Shown piece by piece: positions 1 through 8,189 of a stretch of 10,378 bases of DNA (position 1 is the stretch's first letter; every line of letters starts with the position of its first letter). Below the pieces are notes generated by a model. That model was not told where the DNA came from, ran no database searches, and saw nothing but the letters and a program-made list of their open reading frames with translations. Source of the stretch: Candidatus Scybalocola fimicaballi (GTDB lineage: Bacteria; Bacteroidota; Bacteroidia; Bacteroidales; Paludibacteraceae); the NCBI GenBank assembly GCA_002317115.1, contig DCIP01000117.1, forward strand, positions 12,814-23,191, written 5' to 3'. A program made the translations under genes and the position numbers.

Positions 1-3000
1 GGATGGTGCCGTTGTCGGCATAAACTTCGAGTGCTAGGTTGCTGATGGTTGAGACGCTGGTCTCATCGCCAGTCGCACCCTTTGTCCAAGATAAAACATT
101 TGTGTTGAATCTAACCTTGCTATCGTAATATCCTACATACAAAGCCAAACTGTCATATTCAATACTATAATAAATACTGTCCAGCGTAACCTTCCAAACG
201 GAATCGTTTTCTTGAATGTAGTTGCAGAGTACACCAGCTTTAGAAAACAAATAACTATTCACAAAGAAATACTCTTTATATTCGTTCTGAGGATAAAAAT
301 CTCCTTCGATTCCAGCAAATCTATCTCCTTCGTTATCCATATTGGTATAAAAAGAAAGAGAGATATAACCGTCAGCATCAAAGTCACCTCGCATTTCCAA
401 TCCCCAAATAGAGTCCTTCTTTGCCATTTCCACAATGATGGTCGTGTCGCTCACGATATTCTTTCCATCGAAGTTGTTGGAGAAAACGTAAGAGTTGCCG
501 CGGCAAACTGGCAAAGCGACGGTGCCATTCAAAGCGACGTCATAATCCTCAATGGCCCCTGTGTAACGAACCACATATCCCTGCGTCGGCTTCAAATCCA
601 CACCTTCAAAACGTGGAAATCCATCCTCTCCTTGCACCCATTGTAGCAATGGAATAGAGTCTGAATAATAATCATAAGCCTTCGGATTTTGCGAAACGTA
701 CTTGTTCAACGAATCTTTCACAGCACCTGAAAGGAAAGCACTGGAATCCATTTCCTGCAAAGCAAAAAGACTACCACTAGCATCATCATCCCAATGATCA
801 GTCTCTATGTAATAAATGTTTTTTGAATCAGGAGCGTATACGTCGCCAGAATTATATATATTGAAATGTTCACAGCAATACATTCCAAGTCCTATAGCCG
901 ATTCATCGCTAACAATTCGTCCTCTGTTGTAGCAATTATACATAGAGGAAGCATCTATTCCACTTGAGTAAGAAGAAGAAACCACCATTCCATAGTTGCT
1001 ACAATTATATGCGGAGGATGGTTTTCCATACTCGCTCACACCGCCTGCATATTTTCCGATAACAACACCTTCAAAATGGCAGTTGACGAAAATGCCGTTA
1101 TTTGCTATTCCAGCCGCATATTCTCCACCCTTCACGTATGCATTCGTCACTTTTAGGTTCTGAATTAGAAGTTTATAAATTTTATCTTCTGTATCGAACA
1201 AAGCAACCTCTTTATCATTATCCGGTTGATTGATATAGAGGTTGGAGATAGTGTGGTTTCCACCGTCGAACTTAAGACATTTGATAGGGGTGAAACTGAC
1301 CATTTCGTCTCCCACCTTGCCACAAACAGGGCTAAGATCGATGTCTGCTTCAAGCCTTGCAATGCCTTTTACCGAATCTCTGAAATACAGTAGCTCCTCT
1401 AAGTTGTGGATAATATACAAATCATCTCCCTCCTCATCAAAGTTCAATGCACCCCAATATTGTGTCTCCCACCATTGCCAAACAGCAAAACCTCCATAAG
1501 AGACAGTATCCACCTGATAAAAGGCATCCATTCCAATACTTGAAACAGTGTAAGGAACCGACAATCTGCTTATTCCAGTACATCCCGCAAAAGCATACGA
1601 ACGGATTGATTCAACTGAATTAGGTATTACAACAGATTGGATGGTAGTATTGTTGATGAAAGCAGAATCTCCAATGGTCACTACATTGTCAGGAATAACC
1701 ACTATGGAGTCAGTACCAATGTATTGTTTCAACACCGTTTTCTTTTCGTCTCCGTAAATAAAATCACCGTCGATTATGGCTTTTATGTGATGCTTCGCTC
1801 CCCAAGGACTACCTGTGGCTGGTCCTGCGTAGTAAATGGTATCAACATTATAAAACGCATAACTTCCTATGGTTTCTACCGAACTTGGAATAAAGACGGA
1901 TGATAAATTCTTACAGTTAAAGAATGCATCTTCACCAATGTAAGTGACTGTACTTGGTATGGAGACGGTAATCAAATCCTCACGTTCATTGAATGCACAT
2001 TTGCGGATGGAAGTGACTCCTTTAGGAATGGAGACAGAGGTCAATCGCGAACATTCAGTGAACGCATAATCACCTATGGAAGAGACAAAATCAGGGATGG
2101 AAATGGCTGTATCGCTACCTAAATAGTCGCCCAACGTCTCCTTTGTTTCATCCCAATAGACAAAATCTCCTTCGACAACGTAACCCTTTATATTTCGTTT
2201 AGCTCCCCATCTGAATCCCGCACTTCCCGCATAATAGATCGTATCCACGTCATAGAAAGCACTTCCCCCCGTAGAAGTGACTGAAGGAGGGATAACGACG
2301 GGCTTCAAACTTGTACAATATTCAAAAGCAGCTTGACCGATAGAAGTGACTGAATTGGGAATATCTACCGAAAGCAAGCTTGTACAACCAGAAAAAGCAT
2401 ACCAGCCAATGGAAGTGATTCCGTTGGGAATAGTGACGGAGAGCAAACTATTACATCCCTCGAATGTGCGGTCTCCGATGACGGTGACGCCACTTGGAAT
2501 ATCTATGGAAGTCAATGCTTGGCAATCATAGAACGCATATTTCCCGATAGAAGTGACTCCGCTTGGAACGGCGAATGAAGTCAGACTTTCACAGCCGTAG
2601 AAGGCATATCCCCCTATGGATGTCAATGAGTTTGGAATGGAGACAGAAGTCAGGTTTGTATGTCCATAAAACGCATTATCACCAATAGCAGTGACGGTAT
2701 TTGGGAGGGACACCTCAGCGTCTTCACCCAAATAATAGGCGAATGTATCCTTCTTTTCATCCGAATAGACAAAATCCCCTTCGATATATTTTCCATTTAT
2801 ACAACGTTTCGCACCCCATCTATCCTCCTCAAGGTCTGTTTGGTTAATAATCACACTTATGCCAGTAAAAGACCAAGATCCAATGGATGTGACTGAACTT
2901 GGAATGATTACAAGAGCCAACCCTTCACAATTATAGAATGCACTTTGTCCAATTGTAGTGACTGAGTTGGGAATAGTAATGGAGGTTAAAGAATCACAAT

Positions 3001-3316
3001 GGTAGAAAGCTTGTTTCCCTATCTTAATAATGGTGTTTGGAAGGGTAATAGACTTCAATGCCTTTGATCCATAAAACGCACTTTCCTCTATGGCTACGAT
3101 GGTGTATTCTTTCCCATCATATTCTACCTTGTCTGGAATCGTGACTTCTTCCCAAATATCCTTATCCATAGGGTGTATTGACGCAGTAAGATTCGCGGCG
3201 TCTTCAATATAACAATACCAAAGTCCATCAACCTTGAATTTTGACCTCTCCGCCATTGCTGGCATTGCCATGAAAATGAGGCATATAATCCAACAGAATA
3301 GTTTTTTGAAAATCAT
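1..3316 (-). CDS. BspA-like leucine-rich-repeat surface protein (3' end beyond window)
   Basis: The frame runs from an ATG at 3316 to the left edge without a stop, giving 1105 visible residues. Residues 1-22 form a signal peptide (MIFKK start, hydrophobic core, AMA before Glu). About residues 72-600 carry 18 LRR_5/BspA-type repeats of roughly 23 residues, pattern LTSVTIPNSVTSIGxxAFxxC. They occur in blocks of 4, 7, 4 and 3, separated by WGAK spacer modules. Residues about 720-830 are rich in Gly, Tyr, Asn and Cys (YNCSNYG, YNCYNRG, IYNSGDV) and resemble GLUG-type repeats. Residues about 862-905 (SGAVKDSLN... GEDGFPRFEG) resemble the segment that often follows such repeats in Bacteroidetes. 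Residues about 905-1095 are unrecognised. The last visible residues, LEVYADNGTI, look like the start of a C-terminal secretion/sorting domain, so the true end may be only some tens of residues further on. BspA-type proteins are exported and often bind host or matrix proteins; the ligand here is unknown. Confidence 0.9.
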   Translation of the reverse strand, partial: MIFKKLFCWIICLIFMAMPAMAERSKFKVDGLWYCYIEDAANLTASIHPMDKDIWEEVTIPDKVEYDGKEYTIVAIEESAFYGSKALKSITLPNTIIKIGKQAFYHCDSLTSITIPNSVTTIGQSAFYNCEGLALVIIPSSVTSIGSWSFTGISVIINQTDLEEDRWGAKRCINGKYIEGDFVYSDEKKDTFAYYLGEDAEVSLPNTVTAIGDNAFYGHTNLTSVSIPNSLTSIGGYAFYGCESLTSFAVPSGVTSIGKYAFYDCQALTSIDIPSGVTVIGDRTFEGCNSLLSVTIPNGITSIGWYAFSGCTSLLSVDIPNSVTSIGQAAFEYCTSLKPVVIPPSVTSTGGSAFYDVDTIYYAGSAGFRWGAKRNIKGYVVEGDFVYWDETKETLGDYLGSDTAISIPDFVSSIGDYAFTECSRLTSVSIPKGVTSIRKCAFNEREDLITVSIPSTVTYIGEDAFFNCKNLSSVFIPSSVETIGSYAFYNVDTIYYAGPATGSPWGAKHHIKAIIDGDFIYGDEKKTVLKQYIGTDSIVVIPDNVVTIGDSAFINNTTIQSVVIPNSVESIRSYAFAGCTGISRLSVPYTVSSIGMDAFYQVDTVSYGGFAVWQWWETQYWGALNFDEEGDDLYIIHNLEELLYFRDSVKGIARLEADIDLSPVCGKVGDEMVSFTPIKCLKFDGGNHTISNLYINQPDNDKEVALFDTEDKIYKLLIQNLKVTNAYVKGGEYAAGIANNGIFVNCHFEGVVIGKYAGGVSEYGKPSSAYNCSNYGMVVSSSYSSGIDASSMYNCYNRGRIVSDESAIGLGMYCCEHFNIYNSGDVYAPDSKNIYYIETDHWDDDASGSLFALQEMDSSAFLSGAVKDSLNKYVSQNPKAYDYYSDSIPLLQWVQGEDGFPRFEGVDLKPTQGYVVRYTGAIEDYDVALNGTVALPVCRGNSYVFSNNFDGKNIVSDTTIIVEMAKKDSIWGLEMRGDFDADGYISLSFYTNMDNEGDRFAGIEGDFYPQNEYKEYFFVNSYLFSKAGVLCNYIQENDSVWKVTLDSIYYSIEYDSLALYVGYYDSKVRFNTNVLSWTKGATGDETSVSTISNLALEVYADNGTI
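1699..1845 (-). repeat. WGAK spacer module 3 of the BspA-like protein
   Basis: Residues about 491-540 contain YYAGPATGSPWGAKHHIK, IIDGDFIYGDEKKTVLK and QYIGTDSIVVIPD. A fourth, degenerate copy (VSYGG... YWGALNFDEEGDDLY) ends the LRR region near 1415-1515 and leads into the GLUG-like part. Confidence 0.8.
2104..2250 (-). repeat. WGAK spacer module 2 of the BspA-like protein
   Basis: Residues about 356-404 contain YYAGSAGFRWGAKRNIKG, VVEGDFVYWDETKETLG and DYLGSDTAISIPD. It follows a block of seven LRRs and precedes a block of four. Confidence 0.8.
2711..2856 (-). repeat. WGAK spacer module 1 of the BspA-like protein
   Basis: Residues about 154-202 leave the LRR pattern and read RWGAKRCINGKYIEGDFVY, then SDEKKDT and YYLGEDAEVSLPN before the LRRs resume. 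The same ~49-residue design recurs at 2104-2250 and 1699-1845. Such interruptions are familiar in Bacteroidetes BspA-like proteins; their specific role is not known to me. Confidence 0.8.
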
Positions 3317-3351
3317 TTTAAGATTAGATTTAATTAGGAGATTATATAGCA

Positions 3352-3464
3352 GTTGTCCAAAATGAGGATTGTTAAGGGCCCGTGTTTGATTGTTGGGCCC
3401 TAACCCCGCTCTCCAACGCGAGCCCAAAGGGCGAGCGTCTAATAAATAAGCGTGTTTGGACAAC
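3352..3464 (-). repeat. Structured leader of the BspA-like gene, bounded by a 10-bp inverted repeat
   Basis: The arms gttgtccaaa (3352-3361) and tttggacaac (3455-3464) are perfectly complementary. Inside are two further hairpins. One spans 3371-3404, with gggccc at both 3376-3381 and 3395-3400 and flanking gtta/taac pairing around a one-base bulge. The other spans 3417-3437, with arms cgcgagccc and gggcgagcg that pair except for two central mismatches. The block lies between the proposed promoter and the start codon at 3316, so it would form most of the 5' untranslated leader. Parts recur inverted at 4271-4333, which favours a dispersed repeat over a gene-specific riboswitch. Confidence 0.6.
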
Positions 3465-3495
3465 ACGTATATAATTGCCTTTAATTATTTTGTTG

Positions 3496-3547: not shown

Positions 3548-4210
3548 TTATTTCTTATCCCTCGTCTCAATATAATCATTGAACAACGATATGTACATCA
3601 ATTCAGTGTTTCCCTGGGCATTACCATAATACGAAGCAGCAAAACTTTCTGGATTCTCACTAAACATTTTTGACATCGTTGAATTACCCTCAAGCATTTT
3701 CGTCCAATACTTATTGCATTTTTTCATTTTGTATTGGCGTAACCACCATACATCTACCGCCCAAGGCCACTCTGGTTTCTTGAAGTAATAATTTCTAACT
3801 TCAGATTTAAAGCCATATTTATCAACACTCATATAGCTGAGCAAATATAAAGTATAACCATCTTTCTCCAACAATTTGTAATATCCAGACTTCTTTTCCT
3901 TAGGCATTTTAGGTTCATCCTTTATAAACTCCAAACAACTGATAAAATAATCGGAGTATTTTTTTGGACCAAAATCCTTTTTCTCCTCATCGTAAAACTG
4001 GACATATTCCACTTCCGAATCTTCAAGCACCACTTTCTTCTGCTTAGGACCCATCAAATAGATTGCCTGTCCGTGAGTGTACCACACTTCGGGAGCCTCA
4101 ATCTGCTCTCCCGACTTCAATGTGATCAACCCGTGATCGCCTGCTGCTGAGGCTGAAATAACTGACGCTACTGAAATGGCTACTGCCAAAAAAATCTTTA
4201 CTATATTCAT
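3548..4210 (-). CDS. Exported protein of unknown function
   Basis: The product is 220 residues. Residues 1-22 are a clear signal peptide (hydrophobic IFLAVAISVASVI, then ASA before Ala), so it should reach the periplasm or beyond; there is no lipobox. Residues about 27-72 (GLITLKSGEQI, GQAIYLMGPKQKKVVL, SEVEYVQF) have the alternating strand pattern of a small Sm-like or SH3-like beta-barrel; this is inference from pattern only. The rest is rich in Lys, Tyr and Trp (for example KKPEWPWAVDVWWL at about 144-157) with no catalytic motif I recognise. It shares its strand with the protease upstream (stop 4584) but sits 373 nt away behind a highly structured spacer. It has its own terminator at 3513-3541 and is bracketed by an inverted repeat pair (3361-3437 and 4271-4333). 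Function not recognised. Confidence 0.8.
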   Translation of the reverse strand: MNIVKIFLAVAISVASVISASAAGDHGLITLKSGEQIEAPEVWYTHGQAIYLMGPKQKKVVLEDSEVEYVQFYDEEKKDFGPKKYSDYFISCLEFIKDEPKMPKEKKSGYYKLLEKDGYTLYLLSYMSVDKYGFKSEVRNYYFKKPEWPWAVDVWWLRQYKMKKCNKYWTKMLEGNSTMSKMFSENPESFAASYYGNAQGNTELMYISLFNDYIETRDKK

Positions 4211-4349
4211 AATTCTACCAATATTAAATGCCTAACGGCATAATGTTTTTTTATGTTTTTTTGTTTTTTACGCTCGCCCTACGGGCTCGCGTTTGGAAAA
4301 GGGCAAGGGCTTCCGCCCTTTGCAATCCTCATTATTTACGTATTTTTTC
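4211..4349. other. Spacer upstream of the small exported gene: T-rich tract and hairpins
   Basis: No gene is supported here. Next to the start codon is a weak -7-like match on the minus strand (taatattg, 4219-4226). A short hairpin tgcc/ggca follows at 4229-4240. At 4242-4269 are near-repeats of tatg plus a T7 run, which read as A-tracts on the coding minus strand and could act as an upstream promoter element. The GC-rich repeat relative at 4271-4333 comes next. I cannot place a convincing promoter. Confidence 0.5.
4271..4333 (+). repeat. Dispersed GC-rich repeat, inverted relative of 3361-3437
   Basis: Three blocks match the reverse complement of the leader at 3361-3437 in the same order. 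First is a hairpin with arms cgctcgccc and gggctcgcg (4271-4279, 4283-4291), identical in both 9-nt arms, followed by gttnGGA. Second is a GGGC/GCCC hairpin (here aaagggc 4298-4304 with gcccttt 4315-4321). Third is the 11-mer caatcctcatt (4323-4333), whose exact complement is at 3361-3371. The middle hairpin differs in sequence but keeps its position, which suggests a conserved structure. Confidence 0.65.
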
Positions 4350-4567
4350 AACAGAAAACAGCGTTTTATAAAATTTTCACGCTTGGAAAACACACAAACT
4401 CGTTTGTTCCGGAAAACTTCCAAACAGAGAAAAATTTAACGAAAGAAAACCCGCTCCAATGTTTTCTCCTGTTTTTGTTTTCCGCGTTTAGCGTTTTAAA
4501 GACATCCTGATGTCTGTTTTCCAGTGCCCCACAACGAAGTTGTTGCTTTTAGGGCACGTTTTCTGTT
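4350..4567. repeat. Nested four-tier GAAAAC/GTTTTC inverted repeat with side hairpins
   Basis: Four GAAAAC motifs are followed by four GTTTTC motifs, pairing in nested order with extended arms. Helix 1: aacagaaaac 4350-4359 with 4558-4567. Helix 2: tggaaaaca 4384-4392 with 4515-4523. Helix 3: cggaaaac 4410-4417 with 4477-4484, continued by aaacag 4422-4427 with 4469-4474. Helix 4: agaaaac 4444-4450 with 4461-4467, closing a 10-nt loop. The gaps hold local hairpins: agcgt/acgct fills 4360-4383 exactly, gtgccc/gggcac fills 4524-4557 exactly, acaaa/tttgt lies at 4394-4407, and gacat/atgtc at 4501-4514. The overall shape is a branched rod or cruciform between two minus-strand genes. Strand and function cannot be decided from symmetry. 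Confidence 0.65.
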
Positions 4568-4583
4568 ATTTTAATAAATCAAA

Positions 4584-6329
4584 TTAGAATCCGAAGCCAA
4601 CGCAGATAGCCACATATTTTCTGGTTCCAAACTTACAACCGTCGTCGTCGCCAGTGTTGAACTCCAACTCCGTCACTTTCTTGACAACATACTCCGCTCC
4701 TACAAAAACAGACTTTTTCTTATTTGGCGAATATCCAAGTCTGGCTCCTGCATGCAGACTTCCCTCAAAATTAAAGTCCTGTGTGAGCACCCCACCAAAA
4801 TCACCAATCACGTATGGCGTAAGGAAGGCTTTGTTGCTTGGTGTCAACTTAAACGGACACTGATAGCCTATGCTGAATTCGACTCCTAAAAAGGACGATT
4901 TTTCAATCATATAGGTAGTGTCATCCTTCTCGATTATATCTGTAGTGTAGAAATCAGGGTCTGCAAACAAATGCTTTTCTGTGTGTCCCAACTCTACTCT
5001 CGGTCCGAACAAGAAATATTTGCCAGCCATAATCATAAAAGTGAGATCCGCTTTCTGTCCGAAATGATCCTCCAATCCCTTTGAAAAACTTAATTCAAGA
5101 TATCTGTTCCACTCCTGCGAATAGATTACCTTCGATTCTTTCGATTTCTGGATCTTTTCCACGTTTTCTGCCGACGACGAGGAGCTGCTCACAATCTTGT
5201 AGCCATCCATGTTTTCCTTCCAAACGACGCCGATCTCCTTGCCTTTACAAACGTAGGTAGTCTTATAATTCTCTCCATCCTTCACGGTAGATGAATATTC
5301 CACGTCTGCCATGTTCTTCACTCCGTCGAATGCAAAATCTCCAACGATTGATTTCATGACCGGTATTGGCGATTTCGTGCGAAGTTGGATTCTGCGCGTC
5401 TCAGAGGCCTTATCCAACATCACCGACAATATCCCCTCGTCCATGCCTAAAAGTGTCTCAGTCGCGACGTAAGACGACAAATCAGCGTCGTTTTTCTTCA
5501 CGTCGTCAAGGAATTGTTTGGCGATCTTTTCGACGTCGCCAATATTATCCTTTGAAGTCGACGCTACAGACATCTCATTTACGGAAACATTGTTGTAGTA
5601 TTTGATCGGAATAGAGAAGTTGGTATTCTCACGGAAAGAGGCTTTCCAAGTGTTGATTCCGACAACGGTATAATCGCCCGACTTCTCCTTCACCAACAAT
5701 GGTCCACCCGAACTTCCTGGGTCGACTTGAGCCGTGTGCTGATAGACAGCGACCGAGTCGATATCACCAAAAAACTCATCCTTCACGCTATTGTTCGACA
5801 TCACACCCTTACCAAGCTGCCACGACGGTTTGTCGCCCAAAGCAGGGTATCCAGCCGTCCAAACGTCGGAACCATCCTTCACCTTATTTTTATTAATCTT
5901 GAGTGCGGGCACATTCACGTCGCCAGAAGGAAAATTCACCAATGCGATATCAAGATTCTTCGATACATAAACGACGGGGCAACGAGCATACTTGACCTCC
6001 GCGCCGTTTACCTCAAAAGTCAAATCCACATATTTAGCGTCGTGCACCACATGTTTGTTGGTCACGACAACAAGTTTTCCCTTCTCATCCTTGATCACAA
6101 AACCAGATCCGAAAGAATCACCACCTGTATATTCCCTTACCTTCTTTGAGGCAGCGATATAGGATTTATTCTGCAACGCGTTTGCTAAGTTTTCATAATT
6201 CAAAGAAGCATTATTCGACTCCCTGACATAGCAAACCGACTCTCTCAACTCAGCCGCATACGACATCATTCCAACACACATAGCCGCGATGGAAGTGATT
6301 AATCTTTGCGAGTTTTTAATATTAAACAT
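4584..6329 (-). CDS. Exported trypsin-like serine protease with C-terminal beta-barrel-like region
   Basis: The 581-residue product starts with a signal peptide (about residues 1-25, SYA before Ala-Glu). Residues about 70-245 form a chymotrypsin/HtrA-type protease domain with a complete triad: His93 in TNKHVV, Asp127 in KNLDIALV, and Ser207 in DPGSSGGPLL. The segment GSGFVIKDEKG is typical of the N-terminal strand. There is no PDZ domain. Residues about 260-380 are an unassigned mixed region, followed by a serine run at 381-386. Residues about 405-581 alternate hydrophobic and polar residues (YLELSFSKG, YFLFGPRVELG, SLHAGARLGYS, SVFVGAEYVV) and end in VAICVGFGF, with a terminal Phe, like a small outer-membrane barrel. 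The likely picture is a protease anchored to the outer membrane by its own barrel; the substrate is unknown. I found no clear promoter consensus in the 130 nt upstream. Confidence 0.85.
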   Translation of the reverse strand: MFNIKNSQRLITSIAAMCVGMMSYAAELRESVCYVRESNNASLNYENLANALQNKSYIAASKKVREYTGGDSFGSGFVIKDEKGKLVVVTNKHVVHDAKYVDLTFEVNGAEVKYARCPVVYVSKNLDIALVNFPSGDVNVPALKINKNKVKDGSDVWTAGYPALGDKPSWQLGKGVMSNNSVKDEFFGDIDSVAVYQHTAQVDPGSSGGPLLVKEKSGDYTVVGINTWKASFRENTNFSIPIKYYNNVSVNEMSVASTSKDNIGDVEKIAKQFLDDVKKNDADLSSYVATETLLGMDEGILSVMLDKASETRRIQLRTKSPIPVMKSIVGDFAFDGVKNMADVEYSSTVKDGENYKTTYVCKGKEIGVVWKENMDGYKIVSSSSSSAENVEKIQKSKESKVIYSQEWNRYLELSFSKGLEDHFGQKADLTFMIMAGKYFLFGPRVELGHTEKHLFADPDFYTTDIIEKDDTTYMIEKSSFLGVEFSIGYQCPFKLTPSNKAFLTPYVIGDFGGVLTQDFNFEGSLHAGARLGYSPNKKKSVFVGAEYVVKKVTELEFNTGDDDGCKFGTRKYVAICVGFGF

Positions 6330-6657: not shown

Positions 6658-7581
6658 ATGTCAAACATTAAAGACAAAGGAAGTAACATTATCAATACAA
6701 CAACTCAGAAATCTCAATCCATAGAAAAGTTGATTCTAGATTTGCGTAATCAACAAGTGATGATTGATTGCGATATTGCTTCTTTGTATGGAGTAGAAAC
6801 TAAAGTTTTGAATCAAGCAGTAAAACGAAATATCAATAGATTTCCGGAAAGATTTATGTTTCAATTATCTAAAGATGAAAAAGACGAACTAGTCACAAAA
6901 TGTGACCGGTTCGTGAAGCTAAAGCATTCCTCGAGTTGTCCATACGCATTTACCGAACAGGGAATTGCGATGCTTTCTGCTGTATTAAAAAGTGAAACCG
7001 CAGTTTCGATCAGCATTCAAATTATGGATGCATTTGTAGCAATGCGTCGTATTCTAATGAAAAATGATCATATTTCAACAGAAATAGAGAACATAAAAAA
7101 GCACTTGCTGGAAACGGAGATTCATCAATTGGAAACAGACAAACGAATTAATGATTTATTTGAAAAATTGGATTTATATAAAATCAAAGACCATAAGGGC
7201 ATTTTTTTTCAAGGTCAAATATTTGATGCTTACGCAAAGTTTGAAAGTTTTCTACAATCAGCCACAAGTAGCATAATTTTAATTGATGGGTATGTTGACA
7301 TATCTGTTTTAGAACGATTATCAAAAAAGAAATCCAAAGTCAAAGTGGAAATTTATACATCATCAAATTCAAAAATTGTGCAAGCAGATATAGACGCATT
7401 TAATGCACAATATCCAATACTTTCGATCAAACATACAACAGCAATGCACGACAGGTTTCTAATAATAGACAATCAAAGGCTATTTCATATAGGAGCTTCT
7501 TTGAAAGATTTAGGGAAAAAATGTTTTGCTTTTGAAGAAATGGATTCATCTCTGATTCCTCTCATACTTTCTAATCTATAG
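6658..7581 (+). CDS. ORF6N-domain protein with HKD-like (phospholipase D-type) C-terminal region
   Basis: The product is 307 residues. Residues about 20-135 are a classic ORF6N domain (LRNQQVMIDCDIASLYGVET, QAVKRNINRFPERFMFQL, YAFTEQGIAMLSAVL), a DNA-binding family common in phage antirepressor-like and chromosomal accessory proteins. Residues about 138-172 are charged and predicted coiled coil. Residues about 180-307 form a second domain ending in H264-D-R-F-L-I-I-D271 followed by G279-A-S. This follows the HxKx4D...GSxN layout of phospholipase D-type nucleases but has Arg in place of the catalytic Lys. From memory, this ORF6N plus HDRFLIID/GASLKDLGKK arrangement recurs in Bacteroidetes and Firmicutes, so it is a real family rather than a random fusion. 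The biological role is not established to my knowledge; a link to DNA or phage biology is inference. The gene is AT-rich compared with the phosphohexomutase nearby and is bracketed by the 40-bp repeats. Confidence 0.88.
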   Translation: MSNIKDKGSNIINTTTQKSQSIEKLILDLRNQQVMIDCDIASLYGVETKVLNQAVKRNINRFPERFMFQLSKDEKDELVTKCDRFVKLKHSSSCPYAFTEQGIAMLSAVLKSETAVSISIQIMDAFVAMRRILMKNDHISTEIENIKKHLLETEIHQLETDKRINDLFEKLDLYKIKDHKGIFFQGQIFDAYAKFESFLQSATSSIILIDGYVDISVLERLSKKKSKVKVEIYTSSNSKIVQADIDAFNAQYPILSIKHTTAMHDRFLIIDNQRLFHIGASLKDLGKKCFAFEEMDSSLIPLILSNL

Positions 7582-7637
7582 AGAAGATTACAAAAAGTCA
7601 TCCAACACACGCTTTTTTTACACTCGCCCCTCCCAGC

Positions 7638-7677
7638 CTCCCTTAAAGGGAGGAGATGGCTCACTCATCTACCGTGG
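7638..7677. repeat. 40-bp direct repeat, copy 2
   Basis: Identical to 6479-6518, in the same orientation. The ATG at 7656 of the downstream truncated nuclease frame lies inside this copy, directly after the purine-rich agggaggag. The upstream flanks also share cctccc, but the match weakens there. Confidence 0.9.
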
Positions 7678-8189
7678 GAATCATTGGAATCTTCATTATG
7701 GGAGAAACAATGGCAGGAATCGACAAAGTGATTACACGTACAGCAGAGTGTGATTTGGACAGTGGCAAAATATTTTGGGACAGACATCGAAAATATTTTG
7801 TAAATTTGCCGAAATTCAAATTGGATGGCGGAGACATCACAATGAAGGATATCTGGTTGTATAGTTTCAAAAATTTAGGCAACATGGAAAATATCGACCC
7901 ATCAGTTTACGCAAAAGCGGACGAAGGTTTGCTTAAGCTTATAGAGAGAGCACAAGTTGGAGCTTTGTCTAAAAAGGAGTATGCCGTGTATGAAGCTAGC
8001 CTTAAGAGACTTGCTGACGAAATAGACATGGAGGAGCATGGATATGAAAGAGGTGTCGAAGATGGTGAGAAACGAGGTATACGAAACGAATCCGTTAGAA
8101 TCGCAACCGATATGAAGAAGAAAGGATTCGATTTCACTTTAATTCATGAGTTAACTAACGTACCTATTGAAGAAATAGAGAAATTGTAA
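7656..8189 (+). pseudogene. N-terminally truncated Rpn-family PD-(D/E)XK nuclease/transposase
   Basis: The 177-residue frame matches only the C-terminal half of the Rpn-type family (recombination-promoting nucleases, PD-(D/E)XK transposase-like, usually about 280-310 residues). It shows RTAECDLDSGKIFWDRHRKY and FVNLPKFKLDG, then DITMKDIWLYSFKNL, a helical LSKKEYAVYEASLKRL segment, the typical charged ERGVEDGEKRGIRNES linker, and the C-terminal LTNVPIEEIEKL helix. The N-terminal nuclease core is absent, so activity is unlikely. The first residues, MAHSSTVG, are encoded by the 40-bp repeat, so the frame has been joined to foreign sequence. In-frame ATGs at 7698 and 7710 are alternatives; 7710 has GGAG 6 nt upstream. 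It lies 74 nt after the ORF6N gene and could be co-transcribed. An intrinsic terminator follows. Confidence 0.75.

Follow-up and report, generated by a model that had tools for sequence, protein, structure and literature searches.

The window, the whole stretch of 10,378 nucleotides that was analysed, comes from a draft genome (77.58% complete) of Candidatus Scybalocola fimicaballi and holds an intergenic repeat at 4350..4567 on the minus strand. Read in that direction, its upstream neighbour is a trypsin-like peptidase gene (4584..6329, minus strand; PF13365/PF00089) and its downstream neighbour a gene with no Pfam match (3548..4210, minus strand), both lying outside the repeat. Elsewhere in the window are a large BspA-type leucine-rich repeat protein (2-3466), an ORF6N-domain gene with a match to PADLOC PDC-S05 and, after it, a PDDEXK_2 gene that we take to be Rpn-like (6658-8189), and two GC-rich palindromic repeats (4270-4325 and 3370-3490) with motifs CGCGAGCCC..GGGCGAGCG and AGGGCGG..CCGCCCT-like, relatives of which interrupt or adjoin other copies of the intergenic repeat (e.g. 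L006, L025). Direct reading of the plus strand placed GAAAAC at 4354, 4386, 4412 and 4445 and GTTTTC at 4461, 4477, 4516 and 4558, confirming the four copies ahead of four that the initial annotation had reported for 4350-4567. Its claim that this nesting exceeds chance was also borne out: against the four nested pairs observed, 5000 dinucleotide shuffles of the region gave no pair in 4712 cases, one in 286 and a maximum of two in 2, and not a single nested pair occurred in the 9661 other 218-base stretches of the same sequence. The folding comparison with dinucleotide-shuffled sequence that it had proposed gave energies far better than the shuffles on both strands of 4340-4577, at -61.5 kcal/mol on the plus strand (z -4.30) and -74.8 kcal/mol on the minus strand (z -6.04), with 0/200 shuffles as good in either case; for this copy the minus strand is the best-folding one.

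Positions 4350..4567 (minus strand) are one copy of a dispersed repeat whose full-length copies measure 192-227 bp. The window's own genome yielded 17 matches at E<=1 (14 at E<0.01), which merged into about 12 distinct copies; four extend over almost all of the query, counting the window copy, and one more copy (L012) proved full length after extension. Across the genus, whose nine genomes are numbered here G000 (the window's own) to G008, there were 84 BLAST matches in 8/9 genomes, together with 109 left-arm and 114 right-arm model matches, two sets with shared members, since either model also picks up the opposite arm in inverted orientation. The repeat was not found in the ninth genome (G005, 91% complete). 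Its exact right-end pattern occurs in 5/101 genomes of the family, all within this genus, and the right-arm model, run with stricter filters and with 16 first-look candidates scored per genome among the matches listed, gave no match in the other 246 of 247 sampled genomes of the order. Among named records, the exact right end was present in 18 stretches, all from Paludibacteraceae or Bacteroidales MAGs, some with horse faeces or RUG labels (presumably rumen) in their titles. Viral contigs gave 0 matches to the right-end pattern; two box patterns, reverse complements of each other in most matches, found 27 and 32 viral stretches, and no arm was present at E<=0.01 in the 33 loci examined. Phage and plasmid records had no BLAST match to the window copy at E 1e-5, and the open-access literature held no description of the repeat among the matches listed for the terms used.

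For alignment, 29 candidates were considered, of which 27 had both ends recognised by a script, and removal of two deletion forms and seven near-duplicates left 18 full-length copies sharing the core AACAGAAAAC...GTTTTCTGTT, with single-base exceptions at the ends. Aligned copies carry five GAAAAC-type boxes in the left arm and five GTTTTC-type boxes in the right arm, with median gaps, from the outside inward, of 35/17/11/9 on the left and 23/20/10/10 on the right. An exact match to the box sequence is seen in 14-17/18 copies for boxes 1, 2, 3 and 5, and box 4 is looser (left 6/18, right 10/18). The four boxes per arm of the initial annotation therefore describe the window copy, in which one box per arm is degraded, while its relatives show five. 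All positions in the window copy being on the minus strand, the left arm (4462..4567; arm alignment and left-arm model), which reads AACAGAAAAC..., comprises box L1 (4558..4563; GAAAAC in 17/18 copies), L2 (4516..4521; GAAAAC in 14/18 and GAAAAT in 4/18), L3 (4493..4498; degraded here to TAAAAC, GAAAAC in 14/18), L4 (4477..4482; GAAAAC here, the loosest box, with GAAAAC in only 6/18) and L5 (4461..4466; 16/18). The right arm (4350..4451; arm alignment and right-arm model) comprises, as GTTTTC on the minus strand, R5 (4445..4450; 15/18 copies), R4 (4429..4434; degraded here to TTTTTC, GTTTTC in 10/18), R3 (4412..4417; 14/18), R2 (4386..4391; 14/18) and R1 (4354..4359; 17/18). On the plus strand the two degraded boxes read GAAAAA at 4429 and GTTTTA at 4493. 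The left-arm model also matches right arms in inverse orientation, so the two arms are related, and their symmetry is by itself enough to produce the nesting of boxes.

In each arm, hairpins occupy the outer three gaps (box 1-2, 2-3 and 3-4), of which the third holds a short or weak one. Two of them had been named by the initial annotation, at 4360-4383 and 4524-4557, with coordinates correct to within one base; they do lie between helices 1 and 2 as it claimed, but hairpins are not confined there, since three successive gaps per arm hold them. Over the whole alignment structure 94.8% of 1242 cells are paired, and 51 cells, a figure that counts copies and not events, are changed on both sides of the pair, compared with 16.6 in shuffles (0/500 shuffles reach 51), whereas six slid registers gave 41-50% paired cells and 4-14 double-changed cells. 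The double changes fall at 14/70 pairs. Three belong to the hairpin L1-L2 (4524..4557), a covarying helix with pair types CG/UA and AU/GC, and 6/6 pairs to the hairpin L2-L3 (4500..4515), where they largely reflect one event common to four copies of G000. Another three belong to the hairpin R2-R1 (4360..4384; helix 13), with 100% of cells paired, and two to the weak hairpin R4-R3 (4418..4430; helix 11), which has 77.8% of cells paired and is poor in the window copy. No double change was seen in the hairpin R3-R2 (4394..4407; helix 12), with 96.6% of cells paired, or in the short hairpin L3-L4 (4483..4493), which overlaps box L3 by one base and has two pairs with 88.6% of cells paired. A further measure, the number of further pair types, was not above shuffles (489/500 as high).

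The nested tier helices, by contrast with the hairpins, showed no double changes in the 18-copy alignment, so the search for compensatory changes in relatives that had been proposed succeeded for the hairpins and failed for the tiers, and nested-tier pairing is unproven. The related claim that each flank fits its nested partner best held for the outermost tier and, at the outer pair of tier 2, in 12/18 copies; as compensatory changes are lacking, evolution does not test it. RNAalifold recovered largely the same fold, except that left gap 3 pairs with right gap 3 in place of two small hairpins. The thermodynamic mean pair probability was 0.91 for tier 1 and 0.87 for tier 2, then 0.44, 0.49 and 0.61 for tiers 3-5, and was low in right hairpin 2 (0.22) and right hairpin 3 (0.06). 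Collectively, these data support hairpins between conserved boxes, and selection appears to hold this hairpin series in place; stacked four-way junctions are a possible outcome of the modelled fold.

Strong folding z-scores and covarying hairpins would also be expected if the repeat family encoded a structured RNA, namely a processed leader, trailer or small RNA, and the window copy is indeed co-directional between two genes that adjoin in relatives. We therefore considered the orientation of the copies, some of which are orthologues of each other: the upstream gene lies on the element's strand in 10 of 19 copies and on the opposite strand in 8 (none found for 1), and the downstream gene on the same strand in 7 of 17 copies and on the opposite strand in 10, after two ORFs crossing masked runs were dropped. 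With either orientation to the genes and no preference between them, MITE-like mobile DNA fits better than a spacer RNA. The two strands fold about equally well (mean z over 18 copies -5.7 and -5.3), Rfam 15 at gathering score gave 0 matches in the window copy, in agreement with the earlier statement that no known RNA family was recognised, and the tiers lack the covariation that RNA helices might have displayed. The double compensatory changes in the local hairpins are equally expected for DNA hairpins. Mismatches gave a mixed result overall in a strand-asymmetry test from which right hairpin 2 was left out: left-arm hairpins show no G-T lean (6 G-T vs 7 A-C), but the excess of G-T in the first five pairs of right hairpin 1 (10 vs 3 A-C) and in right hairpin 3 (37 vs 25 A-C) leans towards the single-strand or RNA function that would predict it. 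On balance the evidence points to a DNA element over an RNA; a structured RNA is improbable, and the dedicated spacer RNA proposed in the initial annotation has become the less likely of its suggestions. The DNA cruciform that it had also put forward is possible, its hairpins being kept by compensatory change, and its boxes are likely to be recognised by a protein. We favour the view that the repeat is genus-specific, mobile and elaborately palindromic DNA.

Comparison of orthologous sites is consistent with such mobility. Homologues of both flanking genes adjoin with no arm between them at four loci (L142-L145), two in G003 and one each in G005 and G008. Measured between aligned coding ends, the gap is 70 bp at L142, L143 and L145 and 24 bp at L144, the G005 locus, where the identity of the flanking genes is low (24.9% and 44.9%). 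These loci indicate that the window copy has been gained or lost. Likewise, a copy of G004 (L021) is absent in G003, where the surrounding spacer (~200 bp) has also diverged, and a copy accompanied by a second repeat (L035, ~500 bp in G001) is missing in G003, G004 and G007 and mostly missing in G002. The dispersed copies and this presence/absence at orthologous sites support the earlier suggestion of a non-autonomous element. None of these locus comparisons gave a clean insertion junction, and no constant target duplication was visible by eye at the core ends. Five G000 copies (L203-L207) begin on the left with an outer repeat, ACTCAAGTTTCGCAA (ACTCAAGTTTCGCAAGT-like), which also occurs elsewhere away from the element and has no transposase identified with it; three of them (L204-L206) also carry it on the right in inverted form, differing by 3-4 mismatches, and one (L205), alone among the copies, has TCAATA on both sides of the outer repeat. 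Given these outer repeats, some copies may have travelled inside another element.

A mobilising enzyme or autonomous partner was not found among the loci examined by eye or in a whole-genome scan that covered one transposase family (PF01797), and no parent insertion sequence was noticed by eye among the ORFs at the arm loci examined. The RAYT/Y1 transposase was rejected as the mobiliser: of 36 Y1 matches in the genus, 16 loci were examined and 0/16 carry an arm at E<=0.5, including one (L176) with three GTTTTC within 50 bp and no arm. By eye, of nine of these 16 Y1/RAYT genes whose flanks were viewed (L161, L162, L163, L165-L169, L173), most lie among short hairpin repeats (e.g. GCGTCTGGAAGACGC, CGCACCAACGGTGCG) that differ from gene to gene. 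A strict two-ended element does not account for the solo arms, which are common for the right arm and also known for the left. A ACGTCAATTCGATGAA-like sequence lies, by eye, within ~60 bp of at least 9 of 25 right arms viewed (L090, L091, L093-L096, L100, L102, L123). It resembles the end ACGTCAGTTCGA of ISPg3, an IS5-family element, as given in PMC4596501.

The element can be set beside several classes of bacterial repeat. Most bacterial palindromic repeats are simple hairpins. REP/BIME/REPIN sequences with their RAYT (Y1) genes are, like the element, dispersed palindromic intergenic repeats in mosaic and tandem arrangements, but in those systems the cognate Y1 gene is flanked by the repeat, unlike the Y1 loci described above. 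Pneumococcal BOX elements resemble it as modular intergenic repeats built from separable parts, with a different sequence and module plan, and the integron attC site is a foldable non-coding site beside variable cargo genes, a functional likeness only, since the element has two symmetric arms and box hexamers. Prokaryotic MITEs, of which Correia, ERIC and the P. gingivalis BrickBuilt and MITE239 are named examples, are described in PMC10969869 and PMC4596501 as short, intergenic, foldable sequences with terminal inverted repeats, no transposase and presence/absence polymorphism. The element is like them in size, inverted ends, intergenic position and dispersal, as PMC10969869 describes these: at 192-227 bp it lies under the ~500 bp typical of MITEs and is too short for an internal transposase, its terminal inverted repeats AACAGAAAAC/GTTTTCTGTT are paired in 98.3% of cells over the 18 copies, and it is dispersed and polymorphic for presence. 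It differs from MITEs in its ~100 bp arms with five boxes each and hairpins in successive gaps, in its common solo arms, and in that the loci compared yielded neither a parent insertion sequence nor a constant target duplication. We read it as a MITE-type element whose hairpin architecture is unusually elaborate.

One neighbourhood contains a gene that might act on such structures. Copies of the element flank a GxxExxY gene (TIGR04256 and PF13366) in G000 and G004 and lie downstream of it in G001 and G002, with tandem copies at this locus in G001, G002 and G004; the outer genes are presumably a DUF2851 gene and a glycosyltransferase gene, and the GxxExxY genes of G000, G001 and G002 are 75-79% identical to that of G004. 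Two contigs of G004 (C5 at L124, and C77 at L192) both break off within tandem copies, so the assembly probably understates the length of the array. Such a conserved neighbourhood in four genomes could mean that element, gene and element form a cognate unit, in which a PD-(D/E)XK nuclease acts on folded four-way junctions and spreads or resolves the element. We judge this quite unlikely: the association involves one locus only, G003 and G007 gave no GxxExxY match at E 1e-5 though both have copies (G003 has a partial copy at this very locus and no gene), seven distant GxxExxY paralogues lack an arm in the flanks examined, which reach up to 1.5 kb, and no biochemistry of the family appeared in the portions of the literature that our search returned. 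The gene is an attractive, if unproven, partner candidate for a trans-mobilised element.

A second locus bears on what the arms might do. In four species the spacer ahead of a DUF4015 gene contains a cargo bordered by arms or by fragments of arms: G002 and G004 have a left arm, cargo, a right arm and then a 56-58 bp left fragment; G003 has a left arm and cargo with no right arm; and G007 has a 37 bp left fragment, cargo and a right arm. In G001 the two arms adjoin, the left one being degraded, and there is no cargo; at E<=0.1 no arm appears here in the window's own genome; the DUF4015 gene of G005 has no arm upstream and surroundings that look unlike by eye, and the locus had no match in G006 and G008, both incomplete genomes. 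Left arms are 100% identical between G003 and G004 and 92.3% between G002 and G004, and the right arms of G002 and G004 are 94.1% identical, as are, at 94.8%, the 250 bp beyond. The cargos share no DNA match with one another at E 1e-3 and comprise putAbiC with a KAP NTPase/PDC-S49; PDC-M11A/B with an AAA protein and a beta-lactamase-fold protein; an XhoI-type endonuclease with an Eco57I-type methylase; and an Hsp70-TPR protein, which matches no defence model, with a UvrD helicase. The last cargo is the least certain, because its helicase matches GajB models as UvrD helicases do; at least three of the four are defence-type.

Near-identical arms around cargos without DNA similarity, an empty pair of arms in G001 and the armless locus in the window's own genome are what one would expect if the arms mark defence cassettes and help to swap them, as ends of cargo units or as recombination sites. 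Several observations weigh against such an exchange element. This is one hotspot only; G003 lacks a right arm and G007 keeps just 37 bp of the left; and the orientation of the arms relative to the flanking genes differs between species. Between G002 and G004, identity is 84.2% across 100 bp adjoining the right arm on its cargo-facing side and only 65.1% over 60 bp outside the left arm, and the similarity that continues past the right arm towards the cargo means that the boundary of exchange is not at the arm. At the restriction-modification locus, a residual right end seems to close off the left arm ahead of the cargo. Ten distinct left-only loci were counted (fragments excluded), and four were judged to have defence-type genes on the inner side, a tally to be read as a count, not an enrichment: the DUF4015 locus, one with an AAA protein and restriction-type genes as judged from their translations, one with a PbeA/type-IV-like helicase and one whose gene matches LmuB weakly. 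Right arms of this type are commonly solo near core genes, so the cargos may be chance neighbours in a hypervariable spacer. As a general rule, solo right arms as ends of cargo units were rejected, their interior neighbours including core genes that we take to be argH, carB and ruvA. By eye, two solo right arms (L091 and L100, in G001 and G002) directly follow a gene whose translation looks BspA-like. We hold cargo exchange to be a tentative and rather unlikely explanation that stays a lead.

The reading that we favour is a trans-mobilised cruciform element: genus-specific mobile DNA of MITE type that is non-autonomous, has two five-box hairpin arms and is probably mobilised in trans. The five GAAAAC-type boxes in each ~100 bp arm, similarly spaced, would be likely docking sites for a trans-acting recombinase or transposase. 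Since the palindromes in the outer gaps persist as palindromes through sequence drift, it is probably as extruded hairpins in the cell that they matter. Where the DNA is single-stranded or supercoiled, the arms could fold back so that box pairs with box, and the facing hairpins would then make successive four-way junctions in the folded-back arms. A more specific scheme, in which the cruciform arms persist as exchange sites for anti-phage cassettes while entire defence modules between them are substituted, and a trans enzyme, possibly the GxxExxY nuclease, reads the boxes and the extruded junctions, we consider unlikely.

What sets this mobile repeat, for which no enzyme is apparent, apart is a hairpin series and an arm symmetry that can be folded into successive four-way junctions. 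To our knowledge, the turnover of defence islands has mostly been described with no mechanism in genomes lacking obvious integrases. If the arms do let different defence systems occupy the same site in sister species, they would provide a sequence handle on defence-island turnover.
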